A stretch of 64,000 nt of DNA from Methanothermococcus okinawensis IH1 (GTDB lineage Archaea; AGJL01; Methanococci; Methanococcales; Methanococcaceae): contig NC_015636.1 in the NCBI RefSeq assembly GCF_000179575.2, positions 1,155,495-1,219,494 of the forward strand, read 5' to 3'. Shown one piece after another: positions 51-63,268 of the stretch. The notes beneath the pieces are model-generated. The model was not told the DNA's origin, searched no databases, and saw only the letters and a program-made list of their open reading frames with translations. The position numbers were made by a program, and so were the translations under genes. The number at the start of each line of letters is the position of its first letter. The first letter of the stretch is position 1.

Positions 51-917
51 TTGATTTTACTTGCATTACCAAATAAAGGAAGGATTTCAGAACCTATCAA
101 TGAAATTTTAGATAAATCAGGATTAAAAATGACTGTTCAAGGGAGGAGTTTATTTGCTAAAACTGTTGATGAAAATATAAATGTAATGTTTGCCAGAGCT
201 CGCGATATTCCTGAGTTTGTTGCAGATGGTGTAGCAGATGTTGGTATTACAGGATACGATTTAATACTTGAAAGGGGCGTTGAAAATAAAATTGAATTCT
301 TACTCGATTTTGAATTTGGAAAGGCAAATTTAGTAATTGCATCACCTGAAAATTCAAATATAAATTCTATCAACGATATAAAGGATGGAATGAAAATAGC
401 AACGGAATTTCCACACCTTACAGAGAAATATTTAAAAAGCAAAAATCTTAATTTGGAGATTATAGAGCTCAGTGGGGCAACAGAAATTGCACCATTTATT
501 GGTGTTGCAGACCTTATAAGCGATTTAACATCCACAGGAACAACATTGAAATTGAATAGATTAAAACCAATAGAAACAATAGTTTCATCCACTACGAGAT
601 TAATAGCAAATAAGAATAGTATAAATGACCCAGAGAAAAAGGTAAAAATAAATCAAATAGTTTCAGGAATAAAAAGCGTTCTTTATGCTCAAACAAAAAG
701 ATTAATTATGATGAATGCCCCCAAAAACAAAATAGAAGAGATAAGAAGTATTATACCAGGCATGAGCGGACCTACAATTTCAGAGGTTTTATCAAATAAT
801 GGTGTTGTAGCAATACATGCTGTAATTGATGAAAAAGATGTGTTCCATATTGTAGCTAAATTGGAGGAGCTCGGTGCTAAGGACATACTTGTAGTGCCTA
901 TTGAAAGAATTTTATAA
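51..917 (+). CDS. hisG: ATP phosphoribosyltransferase, long form
   Basis: First step of histidine biosynthesis, joining ATP and PRPP to give phosphoribosyl-ATP in the cytoplasm. The protein (288 aa) has the HisG N-terminus ([10 protein letters not shown]), the PRPP-binding segment [12 protein letters not shown] near residue 165 and, after about residue 210, the extra C-terminal ACT-like domain ([12 protein letters not shown] ... [10 protein letters not shown]) of the long form, which in this family gives histidine feedback and makes HisZ unnecessary. I place the start at the TTG at 51 because GGTGAT lies at 41-46 at the usual distance; a GTG at 42 is in the same frame but overlaps that RBS. 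The upstream region is cut off by the window edge. Confidence 0.93.
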
Positions 918-976
918 TTTTTCACTTTTTTTAATTTATATTTTAATTTTTTATTATTATTTTATTTTTCATCTAC

Positions 977-1837
977 TTATATCTTTTCGATATATTTTAA
1001 AATCTCCTCTGGAACATCCACAAAATGCATGATGCCCCTAAATTGTGGCGTAATATTCATCTCCAAAATATATGGTTTGTTGTTTTCGTCAATCAATATA
1101 TCAACGCCTACAATACCCGCACTTACTTTTTTTACAGATTTTAAAACCATATTTTTAACTTCTGCATCTAAATCAAACCTTTTAATTTCTGCACCAAGGG
1201 AATAATTAGCCCTCCAATCGTTCTTTGGAATCCTTTCCATAGCCCCTATAATTTTATCGCCAACAACAAGAGCTCTTATGTCATGTTTATATGGAATATA
1301 TTTTTGGATGAATATCTCTCTTTTATTGAATTTTAATATCTCAAAAATATTTTTTAATTCATCCATGCTACCTATCCTTAAAACACCATTACCATAACCG
1401 CCGTATATTGGCTTTACAACTACTGGAAACTCAAAATTATTATTTTTTAATGTATTTTTTATATTTTCGAAATCGCCCGTATAGGTTAAAAATGATTCTG
1501 GCATGAGCTCCTTTAATTTTATATATGTTAAGTATTTATTTTGACAAACTTCTATACATTCCGATGAGTTGATTATTTTTATATTATTTTCATTAGCAAT
1601 GCTTTCAATATATTTCAATGCATAAATACCTTCTAACAGATAATCCCTCTCCACTCGTGATATGATTAAATCATAATCGTAATTATTATTTTTATTATTT
1701 TTTAGTCCAAAAACAACATTTAATGAATCTAAAAAGGATACATCATGGTTATCCTTTAATTTTTCGTAAATCATCATGTTTTCAGGTGTTTTTTTATGAC
1801 AAAGTATAGCAATTTTAATATTACCACCTACAAGCAT
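977..1837 (-). CDS. RimK-family ATP-grasp alpha-L-glutamate ligase (MptN/CofF type)
   Basis: ATP-grasp ligase of the RimK group. Visible landmarks are the phosphate/ATP-binding stretch VVVKPIYGGYGNGVLRIG (around residues 140-157), HDIRALVVG, and the C-terminal metal-binding EMNITPQF. In methanococci the relatives of this size (about 290 aa) are MptN, which adds glutamate to tetrahydromethanopterin, and CofF, which caps coenzyme F420 with alpha-linked glutamate; I cannot separate the two from sequence by eye. A short Asn run (NNKNNN, about residue 46) sits in a surface position. It overlaps the upstream methyltransferase gene by 10 bp, so the two are an operon. The first Met may not be the true start: GGTGGT lies a few codons inside, ahead of a possible ATT start. 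Confidence 0.8.
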   Translation of the reverse strand: MLVGGNIKIAILCHKKTPENMMIYEKLKDNHDVSFLDSLNVVFGLKNNKNNNYDYDLIISRVERDYLLEGIYALKYIESIANENNIKIINSSECIEVCQNKYLTYIKLKELMPESFLTYTGDFENIKNTLKNNNFEFPVVVKPIYGGYGNGVLRIGSMDELKNIFEILKFNKREIFIQKYIPYKHDIRALVVGDKIIGAMERIPKNDWRANYSLGAEIKRFDLDAEVKNMVLKSVKKVSAGIVGVDILIDENNKPYILEMNITPQFRGIMHFVDVPEEILKYIEKI

Positions 1838-2640
1838 TTTACTTTAATACTTTCTAAATCTCCGCCCATTTTGTAGGATAATTTAACATTTAATATTCCA
1901 TTATCAATTATTGGATTTTTTATTGGAATTATTAAAGGTGGATTTAGCATAGGGGTGCTTCCAGCAATTATTTTTTCGTTTAATTCTGTATAGGTATTTA
2001 AACGAATGCCTAAGATAATGTTTTTTAGGTTGGTATTGTTATTGTTAATATTATTGTCTTTTAATCTAAATTTCAAATTATATGATACTTCTTCTTTGTT
2101 TATATTGTAAAAATCAACCGTGCTATAACATATTTCCTCCGAGACTGGTTTTGAAATTACCTCCTCATCATAGTAAATATGCCCCATTTTAGCTATAACT
2201 ACCTGTGCTGTATTATGAGCTCGCTCAGGAATTAGTTTTCCTCCTTCTTTAAGTAGTCCTTTTTTAATAATAGCGTTTAAAACTGGAACTTGCGGTTCTG
2301 TTATTAATGCAGTATCGAGCATTTCAGCAATAATCACATCAGCAGGCTCTTTAAAATTATACTCCGAAGCATCAGCCTCTATTAAATTTATATTTTCACA
2401 TTTATTGATTTTTATATTCTCCTTTGCGTATGCGTATGTGATAGGGTCGAGCTCTACGGCATAAACATTTTTTGTAATTTGAGATGCAATCATTGCCAAT
2501 ATCCCACTACCAGTTCCTAAATCATAAACTACATCATTAGGTTTAACGGTTTTTTTAATAGCTTCCTTAAAAATTGCCACTCTCTCCCTATCAAGAAGCA
2601 TGCTATAATGCCACTGTGGAACGCTTAATTTAAGTTTCAT
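1828..2640 (-). CDS. class I SAM-dependent methyltransferase, PRMT-like
   Basis: Rossmann-fold methyltransferase, 270 aa. Motif I is VVYDLGTGSGILAMIAS (about 37-53), followed by the acidic motif II AVELDP and by IIAEMLDTALITE, which resembles the double-E loop of protein arginine methyltransferases; the C-terminal half is a beta-rich extension as in that family. Its substrate is unknown. The gene starts after a strong GGAGGT site and its 3' end overlaps the RimK-like gene, suggesting co-transcription; whether the two act on one pathway is only inference. An Asn-rich insert (NNINNNNTN) lies near residue 200. An L11- or PrmA-type methyltransferase is an alternative reading. Confidence 0.75.
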   Translation of the reverse strand: MKLKLSVPQWHYSMLLDRERVAIFKEAIKKTVKPNDVVYDLGTGSGILAMIASQITKNVYAVELDPITYAYAKENIKINKCENINLIEADASEYNFKEPADVIIAEMLDTALITEPQVPVLNAIIKKGLLKEGGKLIPERAHNTAQVVIAKMGHIYYDEEVISKPVSEEICYSTVDFYNINKEEVSYNLKFRLKDNNINNNNTNLKNIILGIRLNTYTELNEKIIAGSTPMLNPPLIIPIKNPIIDNGILNVKLSYKMGGDLESIKVKCL

Positions 2641-2891: not shown

Positions 2892-4334
2892 TTATCCCTT
2901 AACTACACCCATAGGTTTCATCCTACTTACTTTTAAAGATATTCCTGAGTTATGGGCAACATCTGCAACTAATTCAATGTTTTTATATGCCTCTGGACAT
3001 TCCTCAGCTATTACACCTTTTGAATCAGCCATAACATATATGCCCTTTCTTTCGAGCTCAGCTTTAACACTATTTGAGTCATATAATTTTAGAGCTCCTG
3101 CTCTACTGAGAGTTCTTCCAGCACCATGGGCAGTTGAACCAAATGTTTCCTCCATAGCAATATCTGTTCCATGCATTAAATAGGATGCTGTTCCCATATC
3201 TCCTGGAATAATTACAGGCTGTCCTATTTTATTATAATCCTCAGGTATGCCATCACAACCTGGTCCAAATGACCTTGTGGCACCCTTCCTATGCACAATC
3301 ACATTTTTTAACTTACCGTTTATTTTATGTTTTTCTTTCTTAGCTATATTATGTGCTACATCGTATAGGATATTCATTTCAAGGTCTTCCGCTGGTGTTT
3401 TAAACACCTCTTCAAAGCTTTCCCTTACCCAGTGCGTTATAAGTTGCCTATTTGTCCATGCATAGTTTGCACCGCAGTTCATAGCTTTGAAGTATCTAAT
3501 ACCCTCCTCAGAAGTTATTGGAGCACATGCCAACTGTCTATCCGGTAAGTGTATATTGTATTTTTTAGAAGCTTTTTCCATATATCTAAGGTAATCTGAA
3601 CATATTTGATGCCCAAGTCCTCTGGAACCCGTATGAATCATAACTAATACCTGATTTTTTTCAACACCATACACTTTTGCAGCTTCTTCGTCGAATATTT
3701 TATCCACATACTGAATTTCTAAAAAGTGGTTTCCACTACCCAATGAACCTAACTGTGGAAGTCCCCTCTTTTTAGCATTATCTGAAACTAATGAAGCATC
3801 TGCCTCTTTTACACATCCATTTTCTTCAATATATTTTTTATCCACTTTCCATCCGTAGTTATTATCTATTGCCCAATTTACCCCTTCTTCAAGAACTTCA
3901 TCTATTTCATTTTTTGTAATTCTTATCTTTCCCTTACTCCCAAGACCTGATGGAACATTTTTAAAAAGTTTATTTACGAGCTCCTTTATTTTAGGTTGAA
4001 CATCTTCTTTTGTAAGATTGGTTTTTACAAGTCGAATCCCGCAATTAATATCGAAGCCCACACCTCCGGGGCTTATTACTCCTGTTTTTTCGTCAAATGC
4101 TGCCACTCCACCTATACAAAAGCCATAGCCGTAATGACAGTCCGGCATTGCTAAGGAATATTTTTGGATGCCTGGCAAACAGGCTACATTAGCTACCTGT
4201 TCAAGCACATCGTTTTCCATATTTTCAAAGAGCTCGTCATTTAAATAAACTCTACCTGGAACATTCATGCATTTTTTGTAATCTTTTGGGAGCTCCCATA
4301 CATTTTCTTTAATCTTCACCATATTTTCTTTCAT
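2892..4334 (-). CDS. rtcB: tRNA-splicing RNA ligase RtcB
   Basis: GTP- and Mn-dependent 3'-phosphate RNA ligase that joins tRNA exon halves after intron removal. The 480-residue protein has the full set of family blocks: [11 protein letters not shown] near the N-terminus, [10 protein letters not shown], the metal-binding [18 protein letters not shown], the guanylylation region with [25 protein letters not shown], and [19 protein letters not shown] precedes the ATG. RtcB genes of some methanococci carry an intein; this copy is uninterrupted. It stands alone, with about 250 bp of featureless AT-rich DNA on each side. Confidence 0.96.
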
Positions 4335-4583: not shown

Positions 4584-4997
4584 GTGGAACTTACAATTAC
4601 AATTCATGGAAAGGGACATCCAAATATTAAATCCACCCATAAAACAACATTGGAAATTACAAAAGATGATTATTTAACACCAAAAGGGGATTGTATTATT
4701 GGGATAAAAGCCGATAAGTCCATGGCTGATTTTTCAGAAGAAATTAGGGAAAAAATTAGAAGTTCTGATAAGATTATTGTAGAGCTCATTATTGGAAATT
4801 TAAAAGAGACTATAATGGGAAAAGGACATAAGGATTTAATTTTAAATCACCCAACTGATATTGTGATAAGAAAAAGTAATTTTATATGTCCAAGAACATT
4901 AATGATAAACTCGGATAAAAGTGCAAAGGATTTAAATCGTGAAATCGTGGAAAGATTAAAAAAAGGAGAAGATTTAATTTTTAAAATAATTATTTAA
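4584..4997 (+). CDS. DUF371 family protein
   Basis: Small archaeal protein of 137 aa of unknown function. It shows the DUF371 pattern: HGKGHPNIKSTHKTTLEITKD at the N-terminus, then GDCIIGIKADKSMADFS, and a second GKGH at mid-protein, giving the look of a duplicated beta-rich domain. There is no signal peptide, membrane segment or metal motif beyond the conserved His residues. Start is GTG with GGTGA five bases upstream. It is a single gene between rtcB (divergent) and pyruvate kinase, so context gives no function. Confidence 0.75.
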   Translation: MELTITIHGKGHPNIKSTHKTTLEITKDDYLTPKGDCIIGIKADKSMADFSEEIREKIRSSDKIIVELIIGNLKETIMGKGHKDLILNHPTDIVIRKSNFICPRTLMINSDKSAKDLNREIVERLKKGEDLIFKIII

Positions 4998-5176: not shown

Positions 5177-6547
5177 ATGAAAAATTTGGAGCGTAAAACA
5201 AAAATATTAATAACCATGGGTCCATCAGTTGAAAATAAGTTAAAAGATGCAGTCAAATTGATAGATGGTATTAGATTCAATATGTCTCATACAAATGTAG
5301 AATATATTAAAAAATACTTAAATATTTTAGAAAAAAACAACATTGCAAAGTTGATGGATTTAAAGGGGAATAAAATAAGGATAAAAAAGACTTTTAAATC
5401 AGTATTTAAAACTGGGGATGAGCTCGTAATTGGACGGGATATAATACTAACCTACCATCCAAAGGATGAGACAGAAGAGGAACATTTCATACTTATAAAC
5501 GATGGAAGAATAAAATTAAAGGTTAAAAAAGTAGAGAATGATTTAATATATACAGAGGTATTAGTTGGAGGCATTATAAAGGAAGGGATGGGGGTAAATC
5601 TACCAGACACTCATTTAAAAATGCCTATAATTTCTGATGAAGACATAAATAATATAAAATTTGCCGTAGAACATGATTTTGAATATATTGCATTGTCTTT
5701 TGTTAGAAATAAGAATGATATTATCAATTTAAGAGATATACTAAATAGATACGATAAAAATAATGCTACTTCGATAATAGCCAAAATTGAAACAAAAGAA
5801 GGTTTAAAAAATATAGAGGAAATAGCAAAATATTCCGATGGTATTATGGTTGCAAGGGGGGATTTAGGTGTTGAAATTCCTATCGAATACATACCAATAG
5901 AACAAAAAAATATAATAAATATAACAAATAAGAAAGGAAAATTAACAATAACAGCCACTCAAATGCTTGATTCTATGGTATCCAATCCCTATCCTACAAG
6001 AGCGGAAATAACGGATATTGCAAATGCCATATTTGATGGAACAGATTGCTTAATGTTATCCAATGAGACAGCAGTTGGAAAATATCCGATAGAGGCTATA
6101 AATGTTATGGATAAAGTAGCAAGGATTTCAGAAAATAATATGGAAAAATTTGCCGTAGAAACTCATTTAGATGGTTCCTCCATTTCAACGGGCATAGCCC
6201 ATGCCACACATACATTATATTTAAAACTAAATCCAAAGATAATAATAACACCAACATGGTCTGGAAAAAGTGCTACCTTAATATCAAAATTTAAACCGAA
6301 GGTTCCTATAATTGCCTTAACTCCAAATATGAAAACATTTAAAAAATTAAAATTGGTCTGGGGCGTAGTTCCTTATCATGTTGATGAAGTGAATAACATG
6401 GATAATATATTGGAAATATCGAATAAAATCGCAGAAAGCTTTATTGACAAAGGCATATACATAACTACACTTGGTCATCCTATGGGTGAGAAAAAAACCA
6501 ATGTTATTAAGGTTGGCGTTATAAATGATTCATGCAAAAGAAATTAA
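5177..6547 (+). CDS. pyk: pyruvate kinase
   Basis: Converts phosphoenolpyruvate and ADP to pyruvate and ATP. The TIM-barrel and B-domain signatures are all present: TKILITMGPS and GIRFNMSH at the N-terminus, MDLKGNKIRI, AKIETKEGLKNIEEI, DGIMVARGDLGVEI, the K+/ADP site ITATQMLDSM, and PTRAEITDIANAIFDGTDC. Length (456 aa) fits archaeal enzymes. The RBS is GAGGGGGAT just before ATG. It complements enolase, phosphoglucose isomerase and ADP-dependent kinase elsewhere in the window, covering both ends of a modified glycolysis. It is monocistronic and followed by a long A-rich tract. Confidence 0.96.
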   Translation: MKNLERKTKILITMGPSVENKLKDAVKLIDGIRFNMSHTNVEYIKKYLNILEKNNIAKLMDLKGNKIRIKKTFKSVFKTGDELVIGRDIILTYHPKDETEEEHFILINDGRIKLKVKKVENDLIYTEVLVGGIIKEGMGVNLPDTHLKMPIISDEDINNIKFAVEHDFEYIALSFVRNKNDIINLRDILNRYDKNNATSIIAKIETKEGLKNIEEIAKYSDGIMVARGDLGVEIPIEYIPIEQKNIINITNKKGKLTITATQMLDSMVSNPYPTRAEITDIANAIFDGTDCLMLSNETAVGKYPIEAINVMDKVARISENNMEKFAVETHLDGSSISTGIAHATHTLYLKLNPKIIITPTWSGKSATLISKFKPKVPIIALTPNMKTFKKLKLVWGVVPYHVDEVNNMDNILEISNKIAESFIDKGIYITTLGHPMGEKKTNVIKVGVINDSCKRN

Positions 6548-6778: not shown

Positions 6779-7897
6779 GTGAATACATTCGGAAAGATGT
6801 TTAGGGTAACAGTATGGGGCGAAAGTCATGGGAAGGCATTAGGTGCCGTAGTTGATGGTTGTCCTTCAAATTTACCACTTACAGAGGAAGATATTCAAAA
6901 GGAGCTCGACAGAAGGAGACCGGGTTATAGTATTTTTTCCACACCAAGAAAGGAACCTGATGAAGTTGAATTGCTTTCTGGAACTTTTGAAGGAAAAACA
7001 ACAGGAGCTCCGATTTCAGCATTGGTTTATAACAAAAATCAAAAATCAAAGGATTATAATAAGATAAAGGATACCCCAAGACCTGGACATGCCGATTATA
7101 CCTACGGCGTAAAGTATGGGAATTACGACTACCGCGGAGGTGGAAGAAGTAGTGGAAGAACCACAATAGGACATGTTATAGGTGGTGCAATTGCAAAAAA
7201 ACTTTTAGATTATAGTCATAATATTAAAATAATAGGATATACTGTAAAAATTGGAAAAATTGAGGGAGATTTTAATTATTATTCAAAACAGGAAATATTC
7301 CATTCAGATATAAACGACATAATTGAAAAAATCGAAAATAATCCGTTGAGATGCCCTTCTTCAAATGTTGATGAAATGAAGGATTATGTGCTTAATGCTA
7401 TGGAAAACAAAGATAGTGTTGGGGGTATTGTGGAACTGGTGGCACTAAATGTTCCAGCAGGCGTGGGAAATCCGATATTTGGAAAACTTAATAGTGAGCT
7501 CGCAGGAGCTCTGATGGGTGTAAATGCCGTTAAAGGTGTGGAGATAGGAAGGGGTTTTGAAAGTGCAGAGCTCTATGGAAGCGAGATGAATGATGAATAT
7601 TACTACAACAGCGAAAATAACATACAGTTAAAAACCAATAACTGTGGTGGCATATTGGGGGGTATAAGTTGCGGAGCTCCGATAGTAATAAGGGTAGCAA
7701 TTAAACCGACACCTTCTATTTCAAAAATCCAACATACTGTTAATGTGAAAACAGGAAAAAATCAGGAACTAATAATAGGTGGAAGGCATGACCCTATAAT
7801 TGTTCCAAGGGCTATTCCTGTTTTGGAGTCTATGGTGGCAATTACACTATCAGATTTAATGATTAGAAGCGGTTTTATTCATCCTTGTAGGTTATAA
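6779..7897 (+). CDS. aroC: chorismate synthase
   Basis: Last step of the shikimate pathway, FMN-dependent conversion of EPSP to chorismate. At 372 aa it is of normal length and shows the three family signatures: WGESHGKALGAVVDG (residues 13-27), RPGHADYTYGVKYG followed by DYRGGGRSSGRTT (about 100-130), and GRHDPIIVPRAIPVLESM near the C-terminus; NCGGILGGISCGAPI is also typical. Start is GTG after GGTGATATT. The gene is unusually dense in GAGCTC, with six copies, including in-frame Glu-Leu and Gly-Ala-Pro codings. Confidence 0.97.
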   Translation: MNTFGKMFRVTVWGESHGKALGAVVDGCPSNLPLTEEDIQKELDRRRPGYSIFSTPRKEPDEVELLSGTFEGKTTGAPISALVYNKNQKSKDYNKIKDTPRPGHADYTYGVKYGNYDYRGGGRSSGRTTIGHVIGGAIAKKLLDYSHNIKIIGYTVKIGKIEGDFNYYSKQEIFHSDINDIIEKIENNPLRCPSSNVDEMKDYVLNAMENKDSVGGIVELVALNVPAGVGNPIFGKLNSELAGALMGVNAVKGVEIGRGFESAELYGSEMNDEYYYNSENNIQLKTNNCGGILGGISCGAPIVIRVAIKPTPSISKIQHTVNVKTGKNQELIIGGRHDPIIVPRAIPVLESMVAITLSDLMIRSGFIHPCRL

Positions 7898-8021: not shown

Positions 8022-8888
8022 ATGGGAAAAAAAGACAAACGATGGGTTTTACAGAGAAAAAGGGATTTTTATTATAAATTAGCAAAGAAAAATAAATACC
8101 GTTCCAGAGCATCATATAAACTCCTTCAATTAAATGAAAAATTCAATATCATAAAAGAAAATGATGTGGTAGTTGATTTAGGATGTGCTCCTGGTGGATG
8201 GTTACAGGCAGCAAGGGATATTGTAGGAGAAGGTGGATTTGTGGCAGGCGTAGATTTACAGGGCGTAAAACCTTTAAAATATGAAAATGTAATAGCAATT
8301 AAGGGGGACATGACTAAAAAAGAAACTATTGAAAAACTTATGAAACTCCTACCTTCAAAAGCGGATGCCGTAATTTGCGATGCATCACCCAATATAAGTG
8401 GTGTTTGGGAAAGAGACCATACAAGGTCATTGGAATTGACTACAATAGCACTTATAACAGCTACAAAATTGTTAAAAAAGGACGGTAATTTTGTTGTTAA
8501 AGTATTCCAAGGTAGTTTATTTAACGATTATGTTGCACTATTAAAAAATTACTTTAAAAAGGTTCAAACTACAAAACCAAAAGCTTCAAGGGATGTAAGT
8601 GCAGAGGTTTATGTTGTTGGAAAAAAATTTTTAGGAAAACCATTCGATAGAAATTTAAAATCTCCAATATTAAGACTAATTGATTTTAAAGCAATTGATG
8701 AGGAGAAGGGAGAAAAAGGAACAATTAATATAACTGAGGATATTCAAGAAGAAAAAGGACTTATGATAAAGAGAATAAAGGAGCTCCGAAAAGAAAAAAT
8801 ATCTAAATTAGATTATTATTTTTATTCCTTTTTTTATTATTTTTTATATTTTACTTTTATTTCCAGAGCTCTAACTCTCTTCTTTTAA
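8022..8888 (+). CDS. rlmE: RlmE/FtsJ-type rRNA 2'-O-methyltransferase
   Basis: SAM-dependent ribose methyltransferase of the FtsJ family, expected to act on 23S rRNA. The N-terminus [17 protein letters not shown] and YRSRASYKL carry the first Lys of the K-D-K-E tetrad; [13 protein letters not shown] is the SAM motif; ICDASPN gives the Asp; FVVKVFQG gives the second Lys; EVYVVGKK gives the Glu. The start is the ATG at 8022 after GTGATAATT. The last 22 or so residues (from about LDYYFYS) are aromatic and low in complexity, look like translated T-rich spacer, and overlap the convergent KH gene by 32 bp, so the natural stop may have been lost. Confidence 0.93.
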
Positions 8889-10447: not shown

Positions 10448-11365
10448 TTAATAGTTATTTGCGAGCTCTTCATCTATTGGTCGGAGCTCCTCCCCTGTGA
10501 TATATCGATATAATTCTTTGTAATCACACTCAATCCCTTTTCTTTTAAAGAAGTTAGTTATGTTTTTTATATCTCTAATTAATAGGGATTTTGATAGAGG
10601 ATGCTGAACAATAACGCCCTGTGAAAAGTCAATATATACAGGCTTATCATCCTTAACCAATATATTATATTCTGATAAATCACCATGAACAAGCTGAGCA
10701 TCATTATAAAGTGTTTTTAAGTCCTCTTTTATTATTTCATAAAATTTGGCATAATCAACATTTACATCTTTTAATCTTGGTGAAGGAGCTCCGTTATTGT
10801 CATGTATGAGCTCCATAAGAAGCACATTTTCTCTTCTTAGTAATGCCTTAGGGCTATTAACATAATAGTTTGCCCTCTTTAAATTTCTATATTCCTTCTC
10901 AACCCATGCATGTATGATTTGTCTTGTAGAGCTCTTCCTTAAATGGAATCTTGGGTCTCCTTGAATATATTTCCACATGGTTTTAAAATCGCAGGTGGAA
11001 ACTCTATATACCTTTACAGCAAAATATTTATTTTCTTTGACTGCTGAAAAAACCACTGATTCCTTTCCAGAATTAATTACCCCAAGCAATTCATCGATAT
11101 GTTTTCCATTTAATAAACTATGAAGTGTTAAAAGAGTTCTACTATCAAATACGCTATCTTCTGTTTTTAACTCCTCTAAAAACCTTTTTTTTCTTTCCAC
11201 AATTTTTTTCTGATATTCTTTATCTAAAAGTTTTTCGTGTTTTAGCTCTTTATCGTCTTTATTGTTATTGTTTTTATTATTATCACTTTTATCATTGTTA
11301 TTGTAGTCATTGCCATAATTATTATGGTTGCTATAATTGGTATTGGTGTTATCTTGGTTATCCAT
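10448..11365 (-). CDS. rio1: RIO1-family serine protein kinase
   Basis: Atypical kinase/ATPase needed for late small-subunit maturation. Kinase landmarks: GKESVVFSA (nucleotide loop), YFAVKVYRVSTCDFK with the catalytic Lys and the RIO flexible loop start, VHGDLSEYNILV (catalytic Asp/Asn), and VYIDFSQGV (metal Asp). The first 55 residues are Asn- and Asp-rich low complexity, absent from the usual ~290-residue archaeal RIO1 core; the true start could be an internal codon, but no better RBS is evident. It is directly downstream of eIF1A on the same strand. Confidence 0.95.
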   Translation of the reverse strand: MDNQDNTNTNYSNHNNYGNDYNNNDKSDNNKNNNNKDDKELKHEKLLDKEYQKKIVERKKRFLEELKTEDSVFDSRTLLTLHSLLNGKHIDELLGVINSGKESVVFSAVKENKYFAVKVYRVSTCDFKTMWKYIQGDPRFHLRKSSTRQIIHAWVEKEYRNLKRANYYVNSPKALLRRENVLLMELIHDNNGAPSPRLKDVNVDYAKFYEIIKEDLKTLYNDAQLVHGDLSEYNILVKDDKPVYIDFSQGVIVQHPLSKSLLIRDIKNITNFFKRKGIECDYKELYRYITGEELRPIDEELANNY

Positions 11366-11988: not shown

Positions 11989-12381
11989 ATGTGCATATTT
12001 TGCAAGATAGCAAATAAAGAAATTCCTGCAAAAATAATATATGGAGATGAAGATACCATGGCATTTTTAGATGTGAATCCAAGAAGCAAGGGGCACACAC
12101 TTGTAATACCAAAAAAACACTATGAAACATTTGACGAGCTCCCAGAAGAAACTGCTATAAATCTAATAAAAACTATTAAAAAAGTTGTTAATATCTTGAA
12201 ATCACTTAATCCTGATGGTTATAATATATTAAACAATAATAAACCAATAGCAGGACAAGAAATTCCACATGTCCATTTTCACATAATTCCAAGATATAAC
12301 AATGAAAAAGAAGCCATAATAAGGTTTTCAGAACCAATAAAAACTGATTTAGATGAAGTTTTAAAAGAAATAAATGTATAA
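11989..12381 (+). CDS. HIT-family nucleotide hydrolase
   Basis: Histidine-triad protein of 130 aa, HINT branch, hydrolysing AMP-linked substrates such as adenosine phosphoramidates. The signature HVHFHIIPR is near residue 93, preceded by the family's ILNNNKPIAGQEIPH, and the N-terminus CIFCKIANKEIPA is classic, including the Cys pair. I start at the ATG at 11989 because GGTGATATT directly precedes it; an in-frame ATG at 11974 overlaps the RBS. It stands alone, convergent with speE. Confidence 0.93.
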   Translation: MCIFCKIANKEIPAKIIYGDEDTMAFLDVNPRSKGHTLVIPKKHYETFDELPEETAINLIKTIKKVVNILKSLNPDGYNILNNNKPIAGQEIPHVHFHIIPRYNNEKEAIIRFSEPIKTDLDEVLKEINV

Positions 12382-13441: not shown

Positions 13442-13795
13442 TTAATCTACTATATTTCCTCTTTGAATATTAATAACTTCAAAATTATCAGGTTTTAAAA
13501 AAGACCTTATTGTTGGAATAGCATCTTCTGGATTCACATGTTCCCCACAGGTAAATATATCCATTGCAGCATACCCGAGCTCAGGCCAGCTGTGTATTGA
13601 TATATGACTTTCAGCAAGAACGGCAACTCCTGTAACTCCTTGTGGTGAAAATTTATGAGTTTTTACGCATATCAAAGTAGCTCCGCAGGCGTCAACAGCA
13701 TCTACAAGCATGTTTTCAATACCTACTTGGTCATCCAAAGCTTTATTATCACATCCCCATAATTCTAAAATCAGGTGTTTTCCTAAGTGTTTCAA
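13442..13795 (-). CDS. speD: S-adenosylmethionine decarboxylase proenzyme
   Basis: Pyruvoyl enzyme making the aminopropyl donor decarboxylated SAM. At 117 aa it is the small bacterial/archaeal class 1B form. The self-cleavage site is [13 protein letters not shown], with Glu62-Ser63, Ser63 becoming the pyruvoyl group; His68 and Cys83 (IFTCGEH) are the processing and catalytic residues of the family. It starts after GGAGGTGAAA. It is followed at 180 bp by speE. Confidence 0.96.
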
Positions 13796-34651: not shown

Positions 34652-35492
<841 letters not shown>

Positions 35493-41860: not shown

Positions 41861-41982
41861 ATTAAAACAAGATGGAAATAAATATAAAAAAAGGAATTAA
41901 TCAATTTAAGTTAAATGTTTATAAAACTAAATACATAGTTAAAAGACTATCTTTATAATTTTTTATTTAATTTTATTTTTAT

Positions 41983-50517: not shown

Positions 50518-52608
50518 TTATGGAAGTAATATATCGTAGTCATTGTTATGGATTGCCATTATTACAAAGGCATGAGACCACCCAAGTGGAATTGCAGATA
50601 TCGGAGCTCCTATATCTTTATGCACCTGTTCAGGAAATAGCCCATTATATTGGTGATTCTCCAATACCCAATCAAACAATTCGTTGCATTTTTCATTACA
50701 GTGTTTAATAAGGTCTTCTTTTGTAAGTATGTCCTTGTTTATATGTTTTATATTGAGGGATTTAATAAATTTATCTTCTTTTGTCTCCTTCTCATTGTTA
50801 TTATTATTTTTAGTATTTTTAGTATATTTATTACTATTTTTATTACTATTTTTATTACTTTTGATATTTTCCGTAATCATATTCGTATTAATATTCATGC
50901 TCATACTTTCTATATCTTTTGATAACAATTTAATCAACTGTTTATAATACATGTATAACCACAAGGTTGTTATTATCCATGGATTGCCTCCAAAATATAC
51001 ATCCTCAGGATATCTTCCAATTCCACCTATTTTGTAATTAAATGCCTTTTCAATCTGCAATGCCGTTGCTATCATCCTTGGGTCGTCCGCTGGAACTAAA
51101 TTATAAGGGAAGCTTAACCCCAATATGCTTGTATCTATGGTTTTATCAAGTGGATTTATAGATTTTGCAAATCTATTTTCTTCTTTTAAATAAAATAAAT
51201 TATCAACGCTGTTTTTTAATGACTTGATAGCTGAGCTCCATAATTCGAAACAGTTTTCGTCATCATTGAATTTATATTCACATTCTTTTTCCAATATATC
51301 CATAATATTACAGGCAGATTTTAAACCGCCGTATGTTGCACCAACTGTATATGCAAATACACCATATTTTTCTTCCCATAAATCATAACATGGAGAAAGG
51401 TTCTTCGCAGTTTTTGCCAAATAATTTGCAGCTTTTTTTATCATATTCCAATGTCTTTTTAAGAATGTTTTATCATGGGTAATTCTATAATGAATAAGGG
51501 CTCCCCATATAGTGGTGCCAACTTGGTCATTTTGTATTGCAGTTAATCTTGGGTTTCCATTGATGTAATAATTTTGAATCCATGAACCATCGTTATTTTG
51601 GGTTTTTTTGCACCAATCAAAATATTTCTCACTCATGGCATATATTCCACATAAATCCAATGCAACAGCCATATAAGTTGCATCTCTATTCCATACATAC
51701 CTATAATCAGGGTATAATGATGGTGAAGCTATTATGCCCCCTTTATGATTACATAGCATAAGGATTGTTAGTAAAGACCTTTTACATGTATCAATATATT
51801 TTCCATTTTTAATATTTATTGCAATATTTGTAGATATATGGGTAGCCATATCTTGAATAATGCCTTTCCAATATGTCAAAGAAAGGTTATATATATCCCT
51901 ACTATTTTTATCAACCACCTTAAATACATCTATCAAATCCATAATTTTGTGGTAATCGTTATCGTATTGCTTTACAAGTATATATATTGGAATAACTGCC
52001 TTTTGGAATGGTTTTAGTTCAATATCCCAGCATAATGCACTATCTGTTATTAACCCCTTAGCAGTGTCCTGTTCTTTTAATATGCCGTTTTCAATATCGT
52101 TATAGGCACTACTTTCAGAAGACCTTATACCGCATTGATAGGATGATATTTTTTTTCCACTCCCTATGCAGAAAACATACTTTCCATCATATTTAATTAA
52201 ACAATTCTTATTTTTTAAAAATTTCACTGTATTTTCCTTTGGGTATTCACCAATTCTTAAATTTTCATAAAAAAATAGCTTTAAATGTTTTTTTTCTTCT
52301 TCTTTTTTATTGGTGATAACTATTCTTCTAACCAATACATCATGGGATATGGACATATAATCCCTAAATACTATTATAAAGTCATCATCTTCATATATTG
52401 TTTTTAAAACATTTGTATCTTTTAAATATCCTTGACTAATTTTCCATGAATAATCCCAGTGCCATTTTAATTTGCCCTCGCAATATATTGCAAATGCAGA
52501 ATCGAATATATGCTTTTCAAAACCCAAATGTGGAAAGAACATGTATTCAATAGACCCTGCATCATCCAATTTTGCAAGAGATTTCCCATTTCCTATAATT
52601 CCTACCAT
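50518..52608 (-). CDS. GH15 family glucoamylase-like protein
   Basis: 696 aa. N-terminal beta-sandwich typical of prokaryotic GH15 (IGNGKSLAKLDDAGSIEYMFFPHLG), then the (alpha/alpha)6 barrel: ASPSLYPDYRYVWNRDATYMAVAL, TAIQNDQVGTTIWGALIHY, DLWEEKYGVFAYTVGATYGGL with the catalytic acid, and VHKDIGAPISAIPLGWSHAFV with the base in FPEQVHK near residue 663. An Asn/Lys low-complexity insert (about 585-620) separates the last barrel helices. It releases glucose from alpha-glucans; cytoplasmic. Neighbours are GH57 and glycosyltransferase genes. Confidence 0.92.
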   Translation of the reverse strand: MVGIIGNGKSLAKLDDAGSIEYMFFPHLGFEKHIFDSAFAIYCEGKLKWHWDYSWKISQGYLKDTNVLKTIYEDDDFIIVFRDYMSISHDVLVRRIVITNKKEEEKKHLKLFFYENLRIGEYPKENTVKFLKNKNCLIKYDGKYVFCIGSGKKISSYQCGIRSSESSAYNDIENGILKEQDTAKGLITDSALCWDIELKPFQKAVIPIYILVKQYDNDYHKIMDLIDVFKVVDKNSRDIYNLSLTYWKGIIQDMATHISTNIAINIKNGKYIDTCKRSLLTILMLCNHKGGIIASPSLYPDYRYVWNRDATYMAVALDLCGIYAMSEKYFDWCKKTQNNDGSWIQNYYINGNPRLTAIQNDQVGTTIWGALIHYRITHDKTFLKRHWNMIKKAANYLAKTAKNLSPCYDLWEEKYGVFAYTVGATYGGLKSACNIMDILEKECEYKFNDDENCFELWSSAIKSLKNSVDNLFYLKEENRFAKSINPLDKTIDTSILGLSFPYNLVPADDPRMIATALQIEKAFNYKIGGIGRYPEDVYFGGNPWIITTLWLYMYYKQLIKLLSKDIESMSMNINTNMITENIKSNKNSNKNSNKYTKNTKNNNNNEKETKEDKFIKSLNIKHINKDILTKEDLIKHCNEKCNELFDWVLENHQYNGLFPEQVHKDIGAPISAIPLGWSHAFVIMAIHNNDYDILLP

Positions 52609-53064: not shown

Positions 53065-54234
53065 TTAAATGGAGTTTATCACTTTATTGTATACATCAAC
53101 TGTTCTATTCGCTACAACATCCCAACTGTATTTTGTATATACATCATGTTTTGCATTATTTACAATCCATTCCTTGAATCCTTCATCTGAAAGAACCTTA
53201 TTAACACCCCATGCAATAGAATCTGGATTTTTAGGATATACCAAAACTCCATTATGCTCATGCTGTATAATTTCTTTTAATCCTCCAACACTACTTGCAA
53301 CCACCGGAGCTCCGGCTGCCATAGCTTCAAGTGCTACAATTCCAAATGGTTCATAAACAGATGGAATAACAGCTACATCCGCAGATTTAAAAAGTTTTTT
53401 TAGCATATCTCCTCCTACAAATCCTAAAAATAGTATTTTATCCCTGCATCCAAGTTGAAATGCTAAATCCTCTAAATATCCCCTCATATCGCCAGAACCA
53501 GCTATTACTATCTTTGAATTTGGGTGCTGTTCAAGAATCTTAGGAGTGGCCCTTATTAAATATTCTACACCTTTCTGATAAACCAACCTTCCTACAAACA
53601 ATATCATTTTTTCATAAGGCTGGATTCCAATATGAGCTCTGAACTCATTTTTTTCATTATCATCCATAGGTATATCAAATTCCCATGGATTTATTCCATT
53701 GTATATTACATTTACCTTATCCCAAGGGGTATTAAATGTTGAACAAATTTCCTCTTTTATGGAGTTGCTAACTGTAATAACGGCATGGGATTCATAGGTG
53801 CTCCACCATTCTATGTCATTTATAGCCCTTGAATCATCTGAGTAAATTCCTCCACATCTCCCCTGTTCTGTGCTATGAATGGATTGAATATATGGCTTGT
53901 TAAGGAGATGTTTTACACTACTACCCACAAAATGCGTCATCCAATCATGGCAATGTATTATGTCGTAATTATCTACACCTAATGAACCCAATTTTTTTTC
54001 CATGAAATGAGCCATAAATGTAGCCCATGTTAAAAAATTAGGATGCCCTATGGGTTTTACACGATGAACATTTACCCCATTAATATTTTCATATTCTGGG
54101 AGCTCATACCCTACGGTAATTACATCGACATCATGTCCAGCTCTAACAAGTGCCTCAGCAAGACCTTTACAATGAACAGATAATCCCCCCACCATAATCG
54201 GTGGATATTCCCATGTTATCATAGCTATTTTCAT
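53065..54234 (-). CDS. GT4-family glycosyltransferase
   Basis: 389 aa, GT-B fold. MKIAMITWEYPPIMVGGLSVH with the Gly-rich N-terminal loop, HCHDWMTHFVGSS, STEQGRCGGIYSD, then the C-terminal domain ILFVGRLVYQKGVEYLIRA, KIVIAGSGDMRGYLEDLA, and the donor site PSVYEPFGIVALEAMAAGAPVVASSVGGL with the E-x7-E pattern. Likely UDP- or ADP-glucose transferase in glycogen synthesis or alpha-glucan branching, by position opposite glycogen synthase. GTGATAATATG provides the RBS. Confidence 0.92.
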   Translation of the reverse strand: MKIAMITWEYPPIMVGGLSVHCKGLAEALVRAGHDVDVITVGYELPEYENINGVNVHRVKPIGHPNFLTWATFMAHFMEKKLGSLGVDNYDIIHCHDWMTHFVGSSVKHLLNKPYIQSIHSTEQGRCGGIYSDDSRAINDIEWWSTYESHAVITVSNSIKEEICSTFNTPWDKVNVIYNGINPWEFDIPMDDNEKNEFRAHIGIQPYEKMILFVGRLVYQKGVEYLIRATPKILEQHPNSKIVIAGSGDMRGYLEDLAFQLGCRDKILFLGFVGGDMLKKLFKSADVAVIPSVYEPFGIVALEAMAAGAPVVASSVGGLKEIIQHEHNGVLVYPKNPDSIAWGVNKVLSDEGFKEWIVNNAKHDVYTKYSWDVVANRTVDVYNKVINSI

Positions 54235-56190: not shown

Positions 56191-57513
56191 ATGATGAAAG
56201 GCAAATGTTTATTTAACTATACAAATGCTATGGAAAAAACAATAGGTAATGATGGGGTATTATCAACAGACATTGAACATATAAAAAATGAAATAGAAGA
56301 ATCATATAATCGATTATTTAAGAAATATGAAAATAAAGAATTAGGGTTTATGGATTTGATATATCAAAAGGATTTGACTACATATAACGAGTTAAAAAAA
56401 TATTCAAAAGATTTTGAATATATTATTATTATAGGAATGGGCGGTTCTATTTTAGGAGCTCAGATGGTGTATGAAGCCATCAAAGGAATTTATTACAATG
56501 AACATACTACCAATAAAAAAGTTTATTTTTTAGATAATTCCGACCCAGAAAAAACATTCGAAGTTCTTAATTTAGTTGATTTGGAAAAAACGCTTGTATT
56601 TGCAATAAGCAAATCTGGAAATACTGCTGAAACAATTGCGAATTTTTTAATTGTTAGAGATAGGCTGAAGAATAATATCAAAAATTATGTTAAAAATATA
56701 GTGATAGTTGCCAACGACGGAATGCTACGGGAAATGGCAGAGAAAGAGGGTTATATGCTTTTTGATGTTCCTAAAAATGTAGGTGGGAGATTTTCAGTGC
56801 TATCCGCTGTTGGATTGGCTCCCCTTTCATGTATGGGAATAAATATTGAGATGTTATTAAATGGAGCAAGGGATATGGATAAATTATGTAAAAACAAGGA
56901 TATTTTTAAAAATCCTGCCCTTATGAATGCTGTAATCCATTATATACTATACAATAAGGGCAAAACAGTTGCTGTTCTCATGCCATATATTGAAAGATTG
57001 CATAAATTTGGTATGTGGTATAGGCAGTTATGGGGAGAAAGCCTTGGAAAAGATGGAAAGGGACAAACTCCTGTTGTATCTGTTGGAGCAAAAGACCAAC
57101 ATTCTCAACTTCAACTTTATTTGGAAGGTCCAAAGGATAAAATAATTACATTTTTAAGGGTAAATAAATTTAAAAATGATTTAATTATTAAAAATTCAAA
57201 TTATTTAAGTGGTCATAATTTATCGGAGCTCCTACTTTCAGAACAGGAGGGCACCGAGGCTTCATTAACTTCAAGAAATGTCCCAAATGTATCTATTGTA
57301 ATCGACGAATTAAATGAATACACCCTTGGGAAACTTATATATCTGTATGAGATGCAAACTGCATTTATGGGTGAGCTCCTAAAAATAAATGCATTCAACC
57401 AACCTGCTGTTGAAGATGGCAAAAGAATAACCCGTGAGTTGTTAAGAGGTAAATCTATCGAAGAATTAACTGGTTTTAAATCTTATGATAAAAATTATAT
57501 TATTGAGATGTAG
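56191..57513 (+). CDS. pgi: glucose-6-phosphate isomerase
   Basis: 440 aa, classic PGI superfamily. FEYIIIIGMGGSILGAQMVYEA, VFAISKSGNTAETIANFLIV (SIS sugar-phosphate loop), VGGRFSVLSAVGLAPLSCMGI, the PGI signature LWGESLGKDGKGQTPVVSVGAKDQHSQ, and ending with NAFNQPAVEDGKRITRELL carrying the catalytic Lys. It converts fructose 6-phosphate and glucose 6-phosphate. RBS GAGGGGA lies right before two adjacent ATGs. Confidence 0.97.
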   Translation: MMKGKCLFNYTNAMEKTIGNDGVLSTDIEHIKNEIEESYNRLFKKYENKELGFMDLIYQKDLTTYNELKKYSKDFEYIIIIGMGGSILGAQMVYEAIKGIYYNEHTTNKKVYFLDNSDPEKTFEVLNLVDLEKTLVFAISKSGNTAETIANFLIVRDRLKNNIKNYVKNIVIVANDGMLREMAEKEGYMLFDVPKNVGGRFSVLSAVGLAPLSCMGINIEMLLNGARDMDKLCKNKDIFKNPALMNAVIHYILYNKGKTVAVLMPYIERLHKFGMWYRQLWGESLGKDGKGQTPVVSVGAKDQHSQLQLYLEGPKDKIITFLRVNKFKNDLIIKNSNYLSGHNLSELLLSEQEGTEASLTSRNVPNVSIVIDELNEYTLGKLIYLYEMQTAFMGELLKINAFNQPAVEDGKRITRELLRGKSIEELTGFKSYDKNYIIEM

Positions 57514-57637: not shown

Positions 57638-59101
<1,464 letters not shown>

Positions 59102-59575: not shown

Positions 59576-60523
59576 TTATTTTATCCATTTTTCCTTTAAA
59601 AACACATATAACAGTATTAAAATTATAATGGCTGAAATTCCCATAACAATCCAAAATCCATAAGGATTATTCAATAAAGGCATATATTTAAAATTCATAC
59701 CATAAATACCTGTTATCCAAACAGGAACTGCAAATAAAGTGGTAACCATAGTTAGAACTTTCATAATCTGGTTCATTCTTATATTTTCAAGAGATAAGCT
59801 CATATCCATCATTGAAACGAGCAATTCCCTATATGTAGTTTCCATATCTATTAACTGCAATGTATCGTAGTAAAGGTCTTCAATATGTTCCCTATCATCC
59901 TGTGTGGTGATTGGAAGATATTTTCTTTTTAAAATAGAAAGAACATCTTTATTGGACACCAAAGCCTTATGGAAATATACAAGTGTTTTTCTGAGTTGAA
60001 GAATCTCCCCCGTTATATTGTTTTGGTCTTGTAGAAGATTACTTTCTAACTTATCCAATTCATCCTCTAAATTAAGAATAATTTTTGAATAACTTAAAGT
60101 AATTTGGTTTAATAAATTATATAAAAAAAACCCTTTTCCTCTATCAAGTAGAATTTTTGGTTTTTTGGTTTTTAAAAGATTGTATATCTTACCTATGGAT
60201 TTTATTTTATCGATATGGAGGGTTAAAATAATATTATCTTTTATATAGATTCCAAAAGAGGTAGTTGTAATATCTTCCTCAAACAGTGGTGCTTTATAAA
60301 TTATTAAATAATATTCATCCTCTTCTTCGACCCTTGGAACTTCCTGTTCATCCAATCCTACCTTTAATTCCTCTATTTCAATATCTATTTTTTTGGATAA
60401 TTGTAGGAGCTCATCATCGGATGGAGCATAACAATCTATCCAAATTAATGAATATTCTTCACTTAGCTCATTTAGAGTTATTTTTTTTAAATCATTATTG
60501 ATATATCCCAATATTTTTAACAT
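59576..60523 (-). CDS. corA: CorA-type magnesium/cobalt transporter
   Basis: 315 aa. N-terminal cytoplasmic funnel domain (SLIWIDCYAPSDDELLQLSKK, DEQEVPRVEEEDEYYLIIYKAP), long stalk helix with LRKTLVYFHKALVSNKDVL, and two C-terminal TM segments with the signature YGMNFKYMP between them; TM1 begins MVTTLFAVPVWITGI, TM2 is WIVMGISAIIILILLYVFL. Forms a pentameric inner-membrane channel for Mg2+ or Co2+. The C-terminal KEKWIK is basic as usual. GGAGAATATG provides the RBS. Confidence 0.95.
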   Translation of the reverse strand: MLKILGYINNDLKKITLNELSEEYSLIWIDCYAPSDDELLQLSKKIDIEIEELKVGLDEQEVPRVEEEDEYYLIIYKAPLFEEDITTTSFGIYIKDNIILTLHIDKIKSIGKIYNLLKTKKPKILLDRGKGFFLYNLLNQITLSYSKIILNLEDELDKLESNLLQDQNNITGEILQLRKTLVYFHKALVSNKDVLSILKRKYLPITTQDDREHIEDLYYDTLQLIDMETTYRELLVSMMDMSLSLENIRMNQIMKVLTMVTTLFAVPVWITGIYGMNFKYMPLLNNPYGFWIVMGISAIIILILLYVFLKEKWIK

Positions 60524-60708: not shown

Positions 60709-61866
60709 TTATTCTTTTTCTTTATAAAACAATATCGAAGACAGTATAATAAGAATGGCAATATATATCACTACATAAGCAATAACTACTGTAAATAAAG
60801 CATTTCCATTTAAGAATTTTGAAAATTCAAATAACATTTCTCTTGTGATAAATATAACTATTATTTTAAAGAAAAATCTCTTTAATAATGATAATATCTC
60901 TTTATTTGTATATATTATATCATCTATAAAATGAACTGTAATGTATATCAAAAGACCAAGTGTCAATGGATTGGCAAAATTGTAAATAAAAATCCCAATG
61001 GCATTAATAAAATTTAGATGGTAAGAGGCGTTGTAAGAATATATAATTCCCACAACAACAATTAATACGCTTATAATATTCCCTATTGGCGCGAGTTTTC
61101 CAAATTCAAGTCCTTTTTTACCTTCACTAAATGATTTTTTTAATGCACGGGTTAATCCAGAACCTTCTGAAAGAATATATAAGCCGACCATTCCCATGAT
61201 TATTCTCCACCCTAAATCTGCAAATATGGCATAAATAACCATGGCAAAACCAACGGATGTAAAGATGAAAGGAACATATTGAGACATGGTTTTTTTGAGG
61301 AATTCTTGAATTAAATAATAGGTAGATTCTAAGGATTCATTTTGTTTTACAATAATTCTCTTTTTCCACACAAATGCATCTTTATTTTCTAAATATTTTA
61401 ATACCATCTCATCTTCTCGCCCATCCGATACAAGATATATAAAATCTGGTTCATACAAATACATTAAAAAATCAAGCTGTTCCTTTATTCTTCTTGCACA
61501 TTCCTCAGATTCTACATCTTTATGTCCAGATATTATGGCGAGCTCTACATCTTTTCCTTCTTTTTTCAATTCATCGTAGAATTTTATACCCCCAAGTATT
61601 GAATTTACATCGGTATCTCCGGGGTCCGATAATCCCAATTTTATAGCAGAGTTTATAGAATCCGCCCTACCTAAAATTGGTGTTTTGATATTTGCCTTTC
61701 TGCCTAAGTCATCGTCCATATCTGGAACAATAACAAGATATTTATTGTTTTTTTCCATTGGACTATAATCTTTGGTTTGAAAATCTTTACTATTATTATT
61801 AATATTAACATTATTAACAACATTATTAACAGCGTTATTCATATTATTATCTGCATGAGATACCAT
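60709..61866 (-). CDS. DUF373 membrane protein
   Basis: 385 aa. Cytoplasmic N-terminal domain of about 190 residues with VIVPDMDDDLGRKA, TPILGRADSINSAIKLGLSDPGDTDVNSI and FIYLVSDGREDEMVLKYLE, like a CobT/Toprim-type acidic fold, then six or so TM helices from residue 195 on (QYVPFIFTSVGFAMVIYAIF onward). The N-terminus has an Asn-rich stretch (NNMNNAVNNVVNNVNINNN) outside the family core. Function unknown. GTGGTAGTT precedes the ATG at 61866. The same direction as corA. Confidence 0.87.
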   Translation of the reverse strand: MVSHADNNMNNAVNNVVNNVNINNNSKDFQTKDYSPMEKNNKYLVIVPDMDDDLGRKANIKTPILGRADSINSAIKLGLSDPGDTDVNSILGGIKFYDELKKEGKDVELAIISGHKDVESEECARRIKEQLDFLMYLYEPDFIYLVSDGREDEMVLKYLENKDAFVWKKRIIVKQNESLESTYYLIQEFLKKTMSQYVPFIFTSVGFAMVIYAIFADLGWRIIMGMVGLYILSEGSGLTRALKKSFSEGKKGLEFGKLAPIGNIISVLIVVVGIIYSYNASYHLNFINAIGIFIYNFANPLTLGLLIYITVHFIDDIIYTNKEILSLLKRFFFKIIVIFITREMLFEFSKFLNGNALFTVVIAYVVIYIAILIILSSILFYKEKE

Positions 61867-61875
61867 AACTACCAC

Positions 61876-62134
61876 AGAGTTTTACTATTTTTCATAATTA
61901 TTATAATGATTAATTATAAATGATTAATTAAAATTATAAGAAATAACAATACATAATTTAAAATATGGTAATATATAATTAAATATTGATTAAAATAAAG
62001 TAAATTAAATCAAGATAAGAAATATATATGATATATATTTATAATAATTTTTGCTTCTTTGAATATAAAATATATTTTAAGTAATATATATTTAATTTTT
62101 TAAATTTTTATTATTATTTTTATTACCTTTATTT
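61876..62134. other. AT-rich intergenic gap
   Basis: 259 bp without a gene. It carries TATA-like TATATATGATATATATTTATAA around 62024-62044 and the 3' side of the polytopic protein gene (T-rich, 62090-62134). No fold or repeat stands out. Confidence 0.4.
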
Positions 62135-63268
62135 TTATTCTTTATTATATTTAGTCAATCTTATGTTTATATACAATAATAATGCAACTATGACCCATAT
62201 TCCGTAATTTAACCCAACTTCACAGTAAGATAACAGTATCGAAGCATAAATTGCATATAATTTTTTATCCCCTTCATATATGAATTTTGAGAATAATCCT
62301 AAAACCACAGCTATCAAAACACCAAAATATCCAAAATCAAGATATGATGTTCCAAACATGGTTGTTGTAAGGTTATGGTGGTAATTGTACAATATATCTC
62401 CAATACTATTTTGACCATTGGGTGTAAATAGTATCTGTCCGTAGGTGTGGATATTAGAATTTATTATTTTTAGGAATATCGTTAAATCGAGATGAGCTCT
62501 GTAACATAAAATTTCAATAGCGTGAATTTTCCAGTGCTGATTTGATGTCAATAATACAATCTCTCCAACAACGCTCAAAAGTATTAAGGCAACAAATCCA
62601 TAAATTAAAAGATGCTTAAAAGAGGCTTTTTTATAAATTACATAAGATACAAATAGCATTAATATACTTCCTTTATATCCAAAAAGTGTTAATATTATAA
62701 GAGAAATTATAAAGTATATCTTATTTTCTATTCCAGCATATATTAAAGCCCCAGTGGATATCAATCTTAAAGGTTCTGAGCAGGAGCTCATCCTTATGTT
62801 GTAATCAAATAATGGTATTCCACCGTATATTAAAATTACCAGTATAAAAGAAATTACCCCAATACCAAAGATTGCATCAACAAATAATTTTTTATTATAT
62901 AATTTTGTATAGAGCTCTACAACTACAAAAATAAATGCCAAGTATATAATAGACAGTAGTAATGAATGGCTAACTTCATAAGCTCCGTAAATTACGGTTA
63001 GAGACAATATAAAAGATGAAATATATAAAAATAAAATATACGATGATTTTTTATTAAGATTAAGTTGCACTGGAAAAATAAACGGCAATGAAAAACCTAA
63101 AATAAAAATAAATAAAACCCCTAAAATTTTAAGTAGTGAATATGTCCCAATATCTCCCAAATATGGCAATGCCAATACAAAAATTATCAAATGACCAAAT
63201 ACAACAATAGAAATAGGATGGAATAAGTTTATCTTTTTAATATTCTCAATAATATCACATATATGCAT
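62135..63268 (-). CDS. polytopic membrane protein, oligosaccharide repeat-unit polymerase-like
   Basis: 377 aa with about ten to eleven TM helices and few polar loops. Pattern typical of Wzy/O-antigen ligase-like proteins: a long central loop (SSCSEPLRLISTGALIYAG; HWKIHAIEILCYRAHLDLTIF) and near the C-terminus TMFGTSYLDFGYFGVLIAVVLGLF, where the next gene has TPTIFGAVIGDYGTIGIIPYF. So it is probably a paralogue of the following gene. Role likely in surface polysaccharide or N-glycan assembly; not proven. It overlaps the upstream gene by 40 bp. Confidence 0.72.
   Translation of the reverse strand: MHICDIIENIKKINLFHPISIVVFGHLIIFVLALPYLGDIGTYSLLKILGVLFIFILGFSLPFIFPVQLNLNKKSSYILFLYISSFILSLTVIYGAYEVSHSLLLSIIYLAFIFVVVELYTKLYNKKLFVDAIFGIGVISFILVILIYGGIPLFDYNIRMSSCSEPLRLISTGALIYAGIENKIYFIISLIILTLFGYKGSILMLFVSYVIYKKASFKHLLIYGFVALILLSVVGEIVLLTSNQHWKIHAIEILCYRAHLDLTIFLKIINSNIHTYGQILFTPNGQNSIGDILYNYHHNLTTTMFGTSYLDFGYFGVLIAVVLGLFSKFIYEGDKKLYAIYASILLSYCEVGLNYGIWVIVALLLYINIRLTKYNKE

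Follow-up and report, generated by a model that had tools for sequence, protein, structure and literature searches.

Why does the hexanucleotide palindrome GAGCTC recur so often in the DNA of Methanothermococcus okinawensis IH1, and what keeps it there? In the window, a stretch of 64,000 nucleotides of this archaeon, the word occurs 97 times, compared to 2.57 times in dinucleotide shuffles (standard deviation 1.34, maximum 6), so that the excess put forward in a preliminary description, at about 97 copies, was confirmed and even understated. Under Markov models of increasing order (0, 1, 2, and 3), the window should contain about 3.5, 3, 5.5, and 18 sites, respectively, the last value being inflated because GAGCTC feeds its own tetramers. 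The pentamer GAGCT is followed by C in 194 of 218 cases on both strands of the window, in line with the description's claim that this base nearly always follows. The word is raised throughout the host genome (G000; 1,677,455 bases, with a chromosome of 1,662,525 and a plasmid of 14,930), with 2,070 copies against 6 of the reversed control word CTCGAG. A third-order Markov model with the motif masked does not predict the excess away either (31 expected and 1,152 seen, both-strand counts). The density, 2,070 in 1.68 Mb and 28.6-fold over expectation, is that of the highly iterated palindromes (HIPs), which number about 1,000-2,000 per Mb.

The excess is confined to a few relatives. In a comparison set of 36 Methanococcales genomes (a phylum-wide count gave the same 36), four are enriched, G000 with 2,070 copies, G023, which we take to be M. 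aeolicus Nankai-3, with 1,645, G033 with 1,515, and G029, corresponding to Methanothermococcus sp. S013_52, with 1,315; the remaining genomes hold 4-229 each. Among 24 other archaeal genomes, the excess over the reversed-word control was nowhere comparable. On a tree of alanyl-tRNA synthetases, the enriched genomes require three changes, for instance, in the simplest history, one gain of GAGCTC after the split from Methanotorris followed by two losses. Residual ancient sites were sought in the relatives lacking the motif and no traces were seen; by that route, therefore, one gain with two losses is indistinguishable from repeated gains. No mention of the excess in these archaea was found in open-access full text, subscription papers and REBASE notes lying outside reach.

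Several close relatives (G028, G030, G026, and G031) contain only 4-16 copies of GAGCTC. One of them, G028 (14 copies), avoids words containing AGCT, at 0.29 of expectation, as a restriction system active in that genome would bring about, and as though the favoured word had become a forbidden one. Samples of 20-60 kb from the relatives without GAGCTC contained no other palindrome of comparable strength. CTGCAG is mildly raised beside GAGCTC in the G033 stretches L065-L068 (70 and 24, both strands) and not in other samples.

The excess belongs to the complete six-base word. When 859 kb of G000 was compared with a second-order Markov model in which the motif was masked and words containing GATC were excluded, the ratio of observed to expected counts was 28.6 for exact GAGCTC, 0.97 for words with one mismatch, and 1.00 for words with two mismatches. 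The corresponding exact and one-mismatch ratios are 21.5 and 1.12 for G023, and 14.8 and 0.95 for G033, so the graded one-mismatch excess that characterizes DNA uptake sequences is seen in none of the three species. The excess is all-or-none, with neither a halo of decayed sites nor a depleted precursor. The C-to-T neighbours GAGTTC (166 observed, 173 expected; 0.96) and GAGCTT (153 and 187; 0.82) do not show the depletion that is the signature of very-short-patch repair. A longer core, such as GGAGCTCC, was rejected, because the flanking bases only mildly prefer G and do not extend the core. One asymmetry among the near misses is common to G000, G023, and G033 and is not explained by the models, GAGCTA being at about 1.5-1.7 times and GAGCAC at 0.5-0.8 times expectation.

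Along the G000 genome, GAGCTC is found in coding and noncoding DNA and on both strands, as HIPs are. In 737 kb of coding sequence, 1,036 copies were seen, compared to 97 after within-gene shuffling of synonymous codons, with an excess in each of the three codon frames; the noncoding DNA (17% GC) has 58 copies where about 1.1 were expected. Codon usage was rejected as an explanation, since both the synonymous shuffles and the spacers leave the excess. CTC makes up 67% of Leu codons after GAG and 2% after GAA. The spacing between sites is exponential (coefficients of variation 0.99 and 1.06), short gaps being not deficient and long gaps not capped, and regular spacing was rejected on this basis.

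The plasmid of G000 carries 13 copies versus 0.54 expected, and a tailed provirus of about 28 kb (C2, about 312-340 kb), which matches IMG/VR 650716055 at 100%, carries 17. The 31.2-kb stretch holding the provirus has 22 copies versus 1.7 expected, at about half the coding density of the chromosome. Thus, GAGCTC is raised in genes, spacers, plasmid, and provirus alike, and therefore wherever DNA has been resident long enough, not only where codons permit. The provirus encodes an integrase, an MCM-like helicase, and capsid-like, portal, and terminase proteins; its copies are concentrated in the module at 324-330 kb (12 sites) and few in the rest, a pattern suggestive of mosaic ages. In the close viral contig that is not the host's, GAGCTC is absent from 12.6 kb. 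Two glycosyltransferase-type islands (C2:1338010-1348540, 10.5 kb, and 39195-43370, 4.2 kb) also contain none and are probably recent arrivals. At 35621-36635 of the window, two short open reading frames on the minus strand resemble the remains of an insertion sequence (IS) transposase and have no GAGCTC inside; the absence of the word from an IS element, stated in the preliminary description, thus holds for this remnant as for other recently acquired DNA. For the ribosomal protein genes, from which the word had also been said to be absent, the sample is thin, with 2 sites in 4.0 kb and eight genes.

Whether sites are conserved between related species, a check that the description had proposed, was analyzed at conserved Glu-Leu pairs, with small samples and simple two-state models. 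GAGCTC accounts for 31%, 18%, and 18% of these pairs in G000, G023, and G033, respectively. G000 shares 43 sites with G023 (20.8 expected) and 38 with G033 (20.2 expected), and the retention, expressed as the correlation phi, is 0.33 (0.21-0.45) and 0.29 (0.16-0.41), respectively, compared to about 0.10 for control pairs of codons in which both third positions are G or C. Hypomutability would give a phi of 0.83-0.91, a bias in gains only would give 0.00-0.05, and selection, or a drive equal to it in effect, would give 0.5-0.7. On these models, the retention would need both an increase in gains (about 6-14 fold) and a decrease in losses (to 0.2-0.4 of neutral), and the data appear nearest to selection or drive, somewhat towards the gain side. 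The word is present in all three species at 4 of the 95 Glu-Leu pairs conserved in all three, versus 0.58 expected, which supports a common ancestry for some sites. The positions of GAGCTC thus turn over between species, and its density persists across genera.

These results show a bias that requires the full six bases and, taking the 18 single-step changes as a set, makes little distinction among them. It is indifferent to context and spacing, and through it sites are gained as well as protected. A bias of this kind is expected of selection or of a conversion-like drive, and not of mismatch-specific repair, codon usage, or a graded uptake receptor. We give a probability of about 0.5 to the reading that GAGCTC is an archaeal HIP kept in Methanothermococcus and M. 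aeolicus by a lineage-specific factor favouring the intact site. Such a factor would read all six bases and favour DNA bearing the word, as strongly as selection would at a scaled strength (2Ne x s) of about 3-4 for each site. The likeliest means would be a bias in homologous exchange or in gene conversion, acting between the many copies of the chromosome or between strains; direct weak selection would come second, and methylation of GAGCTC would not be required. The factor would also be dispensable, having arisen, on the simplest history, at the base of the family and been lost twice. Only tentatively, GAGCTC may be a methylation-independent, all-or-none drive element that a candidate archaeal DNA-processing protein recognizes, so that site-bearing DNA wins the exchange between chromosome copies and the word spreads in the chromosome, the plasmid, and the provirus without serving the cell. 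Since spacing rules are absent and the word has spread to the plasmid and the provirus, a per-site drive is preferred over a structural role in the chromosome. Of the functions proposed in the preliminary description, a role in recombination or conversion is compatible and favoured. The exponential gaps speak against a site for chromosome organization or repair of a kind that depends on regular spacing.

Several points weigh against a lineage-specific factor of this kind. The retention lies somewhat below the prediction of simple selection or drive, gains appearing more boosted than losses are blocked, and the drive may have fluctuated or may act together with other processes. In the parts covered, about half of G000 and about 1/4-1/3 of two enriched relatives, no gene emerged as a candidate for the factor. 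The polyploidy of the host is our assumption, and relatives of the M. maripaludis type have no GAGCTC excess; M. maripaludis itself is presumably polyploid, and naturally transformable, yet lacks the motif. A gene screen of the partial genomes returned 222 genes, mostly core genes, that were matched in an enriched relative but nowhere in the covered parts of the others, and it did not single out the factor.

The description of cyanobacterial HIP1 dates from 1995, and in the leading model the upkeep of HIPs is tied to DNA methylation. Applied here, Elhai's model would have an orphan methyltransferase mark GAGCTC, with mismatch repair or epigenetics maintaining it, and it draws strength from cyanobacteria, in which every genome with a high-frequency HIP has a methyltransferase able to act on the palindrome (Elhai, PMC4390886). 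The published N6-methyladenine and N4-methylcytosine methylome of M. aeolicus PL15/Hp, a strain different from the sequenced M. aeolicus and only presumably rich in GAGCTC itself, comprises CTAG, GTNAC, GCACY, and CGAG, with an inferred 5-methylcytosine (m5C) at ACGT, and does not include GAGCTC (PMC10113651). In G023, the M. aeolicus-like genome, a scan with five Pfam profile families, which an unusual family could escape, detected one DNA methyltransferase only, and this directly adjoins an MjaI-type endonuclease. MjaI cuts CTAG. The methylome is limited in that single-molecule real-time sequencing (SMRT) detects m5C poorly. G000 contains no PF00145 or PF01555 DNA methyltransferase; its enzymes are two type I systems, a GATC pair made up of a Dam-like enzyme and an adjoining DpnII endonuclease, and an Eco57I-like enzyme on the plasmid. 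Among the five profile families, no methyltransferase class is common to all four enriched genomes. A homologue of the SacI endonuclease (PF09566) was not found above the cut-off in any of the 36 genomes. The methyltransferase explanation was rejected as a candidate, because none of the five families and no SacI endonuclease matches the four enriched genomes. The methylation site and the GAGCTC methyltransferase suggested in the preliminary description are accordingly not supported, and the word, for which no cognate methyltransferase was detected, unlike in every cyanobacterial genome with a high-frequency HIP, is apparently methylation-independent; an upkeep through methylation is judged quite improbable.

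Even less can be said for the creation of GAGCTC by biased mutation or repair, for example by Vsr-like repair of T:G mismatches, or for hypomutability of bound sites. Such a process would act alike in spacers and genes, as is seen. However, GAGTTC and GAGCTT show neither an excess nor a strong depletion, the remaining neighbours, taken together, show no excess either, and the phi of 0.33 falls far from the values predicted both for hypomutability and for gain bias alone; these explanations are very doubtful. A signal for DNA uptake like those of Haemophilus and Neisseria, in which transformation prefers fragments with GAGCTC and molecular drive accumulates the word, fits the density of about 1 per kb, the genic presence on both strands, and the turnover at persistent density. 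The relative M. maripaludis is reportedly naturally transformable. Known uptake sequences, however, are longer, non-palindromic, and graded in their one-mismatch excess (PMC1939737), compared to 0.97 here, and an uptake signal is considered unlikely. Direct weak selection for GAGCTC as a whole-chromosome binding site, whether for the nucleoid, replication, segregation, or Chi-like control of recombination, accounts for a bias that is uniform over contexts, for one-mismatch neighbours that are near-neutral, and for the long persistence of the word. Against this, the exponential spacing means that each site would have to add its own benefit, the word is also carried by the plasmid and the provirus, and two clades lost it altogether on the simplest history. 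Direct selection is still a strong rival to drive, at a probability that we place well below even.

Comparison with known systems places GAGCTC nearest to the HIPs. Like cyanobacterial HIP1 (GCGATCGC) and the alternate HIPs, it is a short GC-rich palindrome that is found within genes as well as in spacers, at about 1,000-2,000 per Mb, and its patchiness among relatives resembles that of the HIPs, which some cyanobacterial clades have lost (PMC4390886). Unlike HIP1, it is archaeal, has six bases and no conserved or detectable cognate methyltransferase, and its near misses are not raised, whereas one-off HIP1 forms are common in many cyanobacteria. GAGCTC is not HIP1 proper, being neither GCGATCGC nor a derivative of it, and GATC is nearly absent from G000. 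The likeness to HIP1 drawn in the preliminary description therefore holds for the form (short, GC-rich, palindromic, about 1 per kb, both strands, genic, patchy) and fails for the methyltransferase. With the DNA uptake sequences of Pasteurellaceae and Neisseriaceae, GAGCTC shares a density of about 1 per kb, many genic copies, and a turnover like that of molecular drive, but it is palindromic, only six bases long, and all-or-none instead of graded. Chi sites are likewise iterated short GC-rich words; they are oriented and non-palindromic, whereas the GAGCTC palindrome has no orientation. To our knowledge, no Chi system has been established for these archaea. Restriction-site avoidance (GATC, CTAG, GTAC, ACGT) is also a genome-wide bias in short palindromes within the same genome, of the opposite sign and with known restriction causes, whereas the GAGCTC excess has none.

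The words strongly avoided in the window and in C2 of G000 are GATC, GTAC, CTAG, ACGT, GGCC, and several of the forms GTNNAC and CTNNAG. GATC was seen 44 times versus about 2,060 expected (444 kb, both strands), which the Dam-like methyltransferase and DpnII endonuclease at C2:275948-277707 explain; the other avoided words have no evident resident enzyme in G000. The plasmid (L041:5124-12634) encodes an Eco57I/MmeI-like methyltransferase of about 1,157 amino acids, followed by a protein with PLD and an SNF2-type helicase, and a homologue of this methyltransferase is located on the G033 chromosome near 15.9-18.4 kb.

The 97 sites in the window were located by word count, with no strand assigned. 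From site 1, they lie at 196-201, 465-470, 867-872, 1270-1275, 1505-1510, 2217-2222, 2449-2454, 3054-3059, 3092-3097, 3978-3983, 4230-4235, 4290-4295, 4782-4787, 5420-5425, 6902-6907, 7005-7010, 7496-7501, 7506-7511, 7568-7573, 7674-7679, 8781-8786, 8866-8871, 10463-10468, 10484-10489, 10786-10791, 10808-10813, 10929-10934, 12136-12141, 12932-12937, 13120-13125, 13577-13582, 15232-15237, 15838-15843, 16038-16043, 17151-17156, 17655-17660, 18773-18778, 20026-20031, 20350-20355, 20717-20722, 20776-20781, 21567-21572, 23004-23009, 23544-23549, 24801-24806, 25372-25377, 25895-25900, 26520-26525, 27120-27125, 28016-28021, 29983-29988, 30789-30794, 31313-31318, 32620-32625, 33031-33036, 34251-34256, 34281-34286, and 34895-34900. 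Three sites lie in spacers, at 35414-35419, 35447-35452, and 43322-43327; the preliminary description had the last of these right and placed the other two wrongly, at 35404 and 35446. The remaining sites are at 38969-38974, 39002-39007, 39075-39080, 39320-39325, 39520-39525, 40902-40907, 40982-40987, 41196-41201, 41816-41821, 42183-42188, 43670-43675, 44000-44005, 44300-44305, 44352-44357, 45301-45306, 46327-46332, 46903-46908, 48916-48921, 49703-49708, 50604-50609, 51233-51238, 53307-53312, 53634-53639, 54100-54105, 56456-56461, 57226-57231, 57373-57378, 57704-57709, 57821-57826, 58649-58654, 58736-58741, 60407-60412, 61540-61545, 62494-62499, 62784-62789, and 62912-62917 (site 97).

Relative to the known HIPs, GAGCTC stands out as archaeal, six bases long, all-or-none, and apparently methylation-independent. 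An archaeal palindrome without a cognate methyltransferase would part the palindrome from methylation. The bias acts on the word as a whole, be it in genes, in spacers, on the plasmid, or in the provirus, and follows no rules of spacing. Missing GAGCTC could serve to date foreign DNA in the Methanothermococcus lineage. Because close relatives differ in whether they have the word, and finished genomes exist both with it and without it, comparative genomics should be able to find the responsible gene; related species of Methanococcus are also amenable to genetics.

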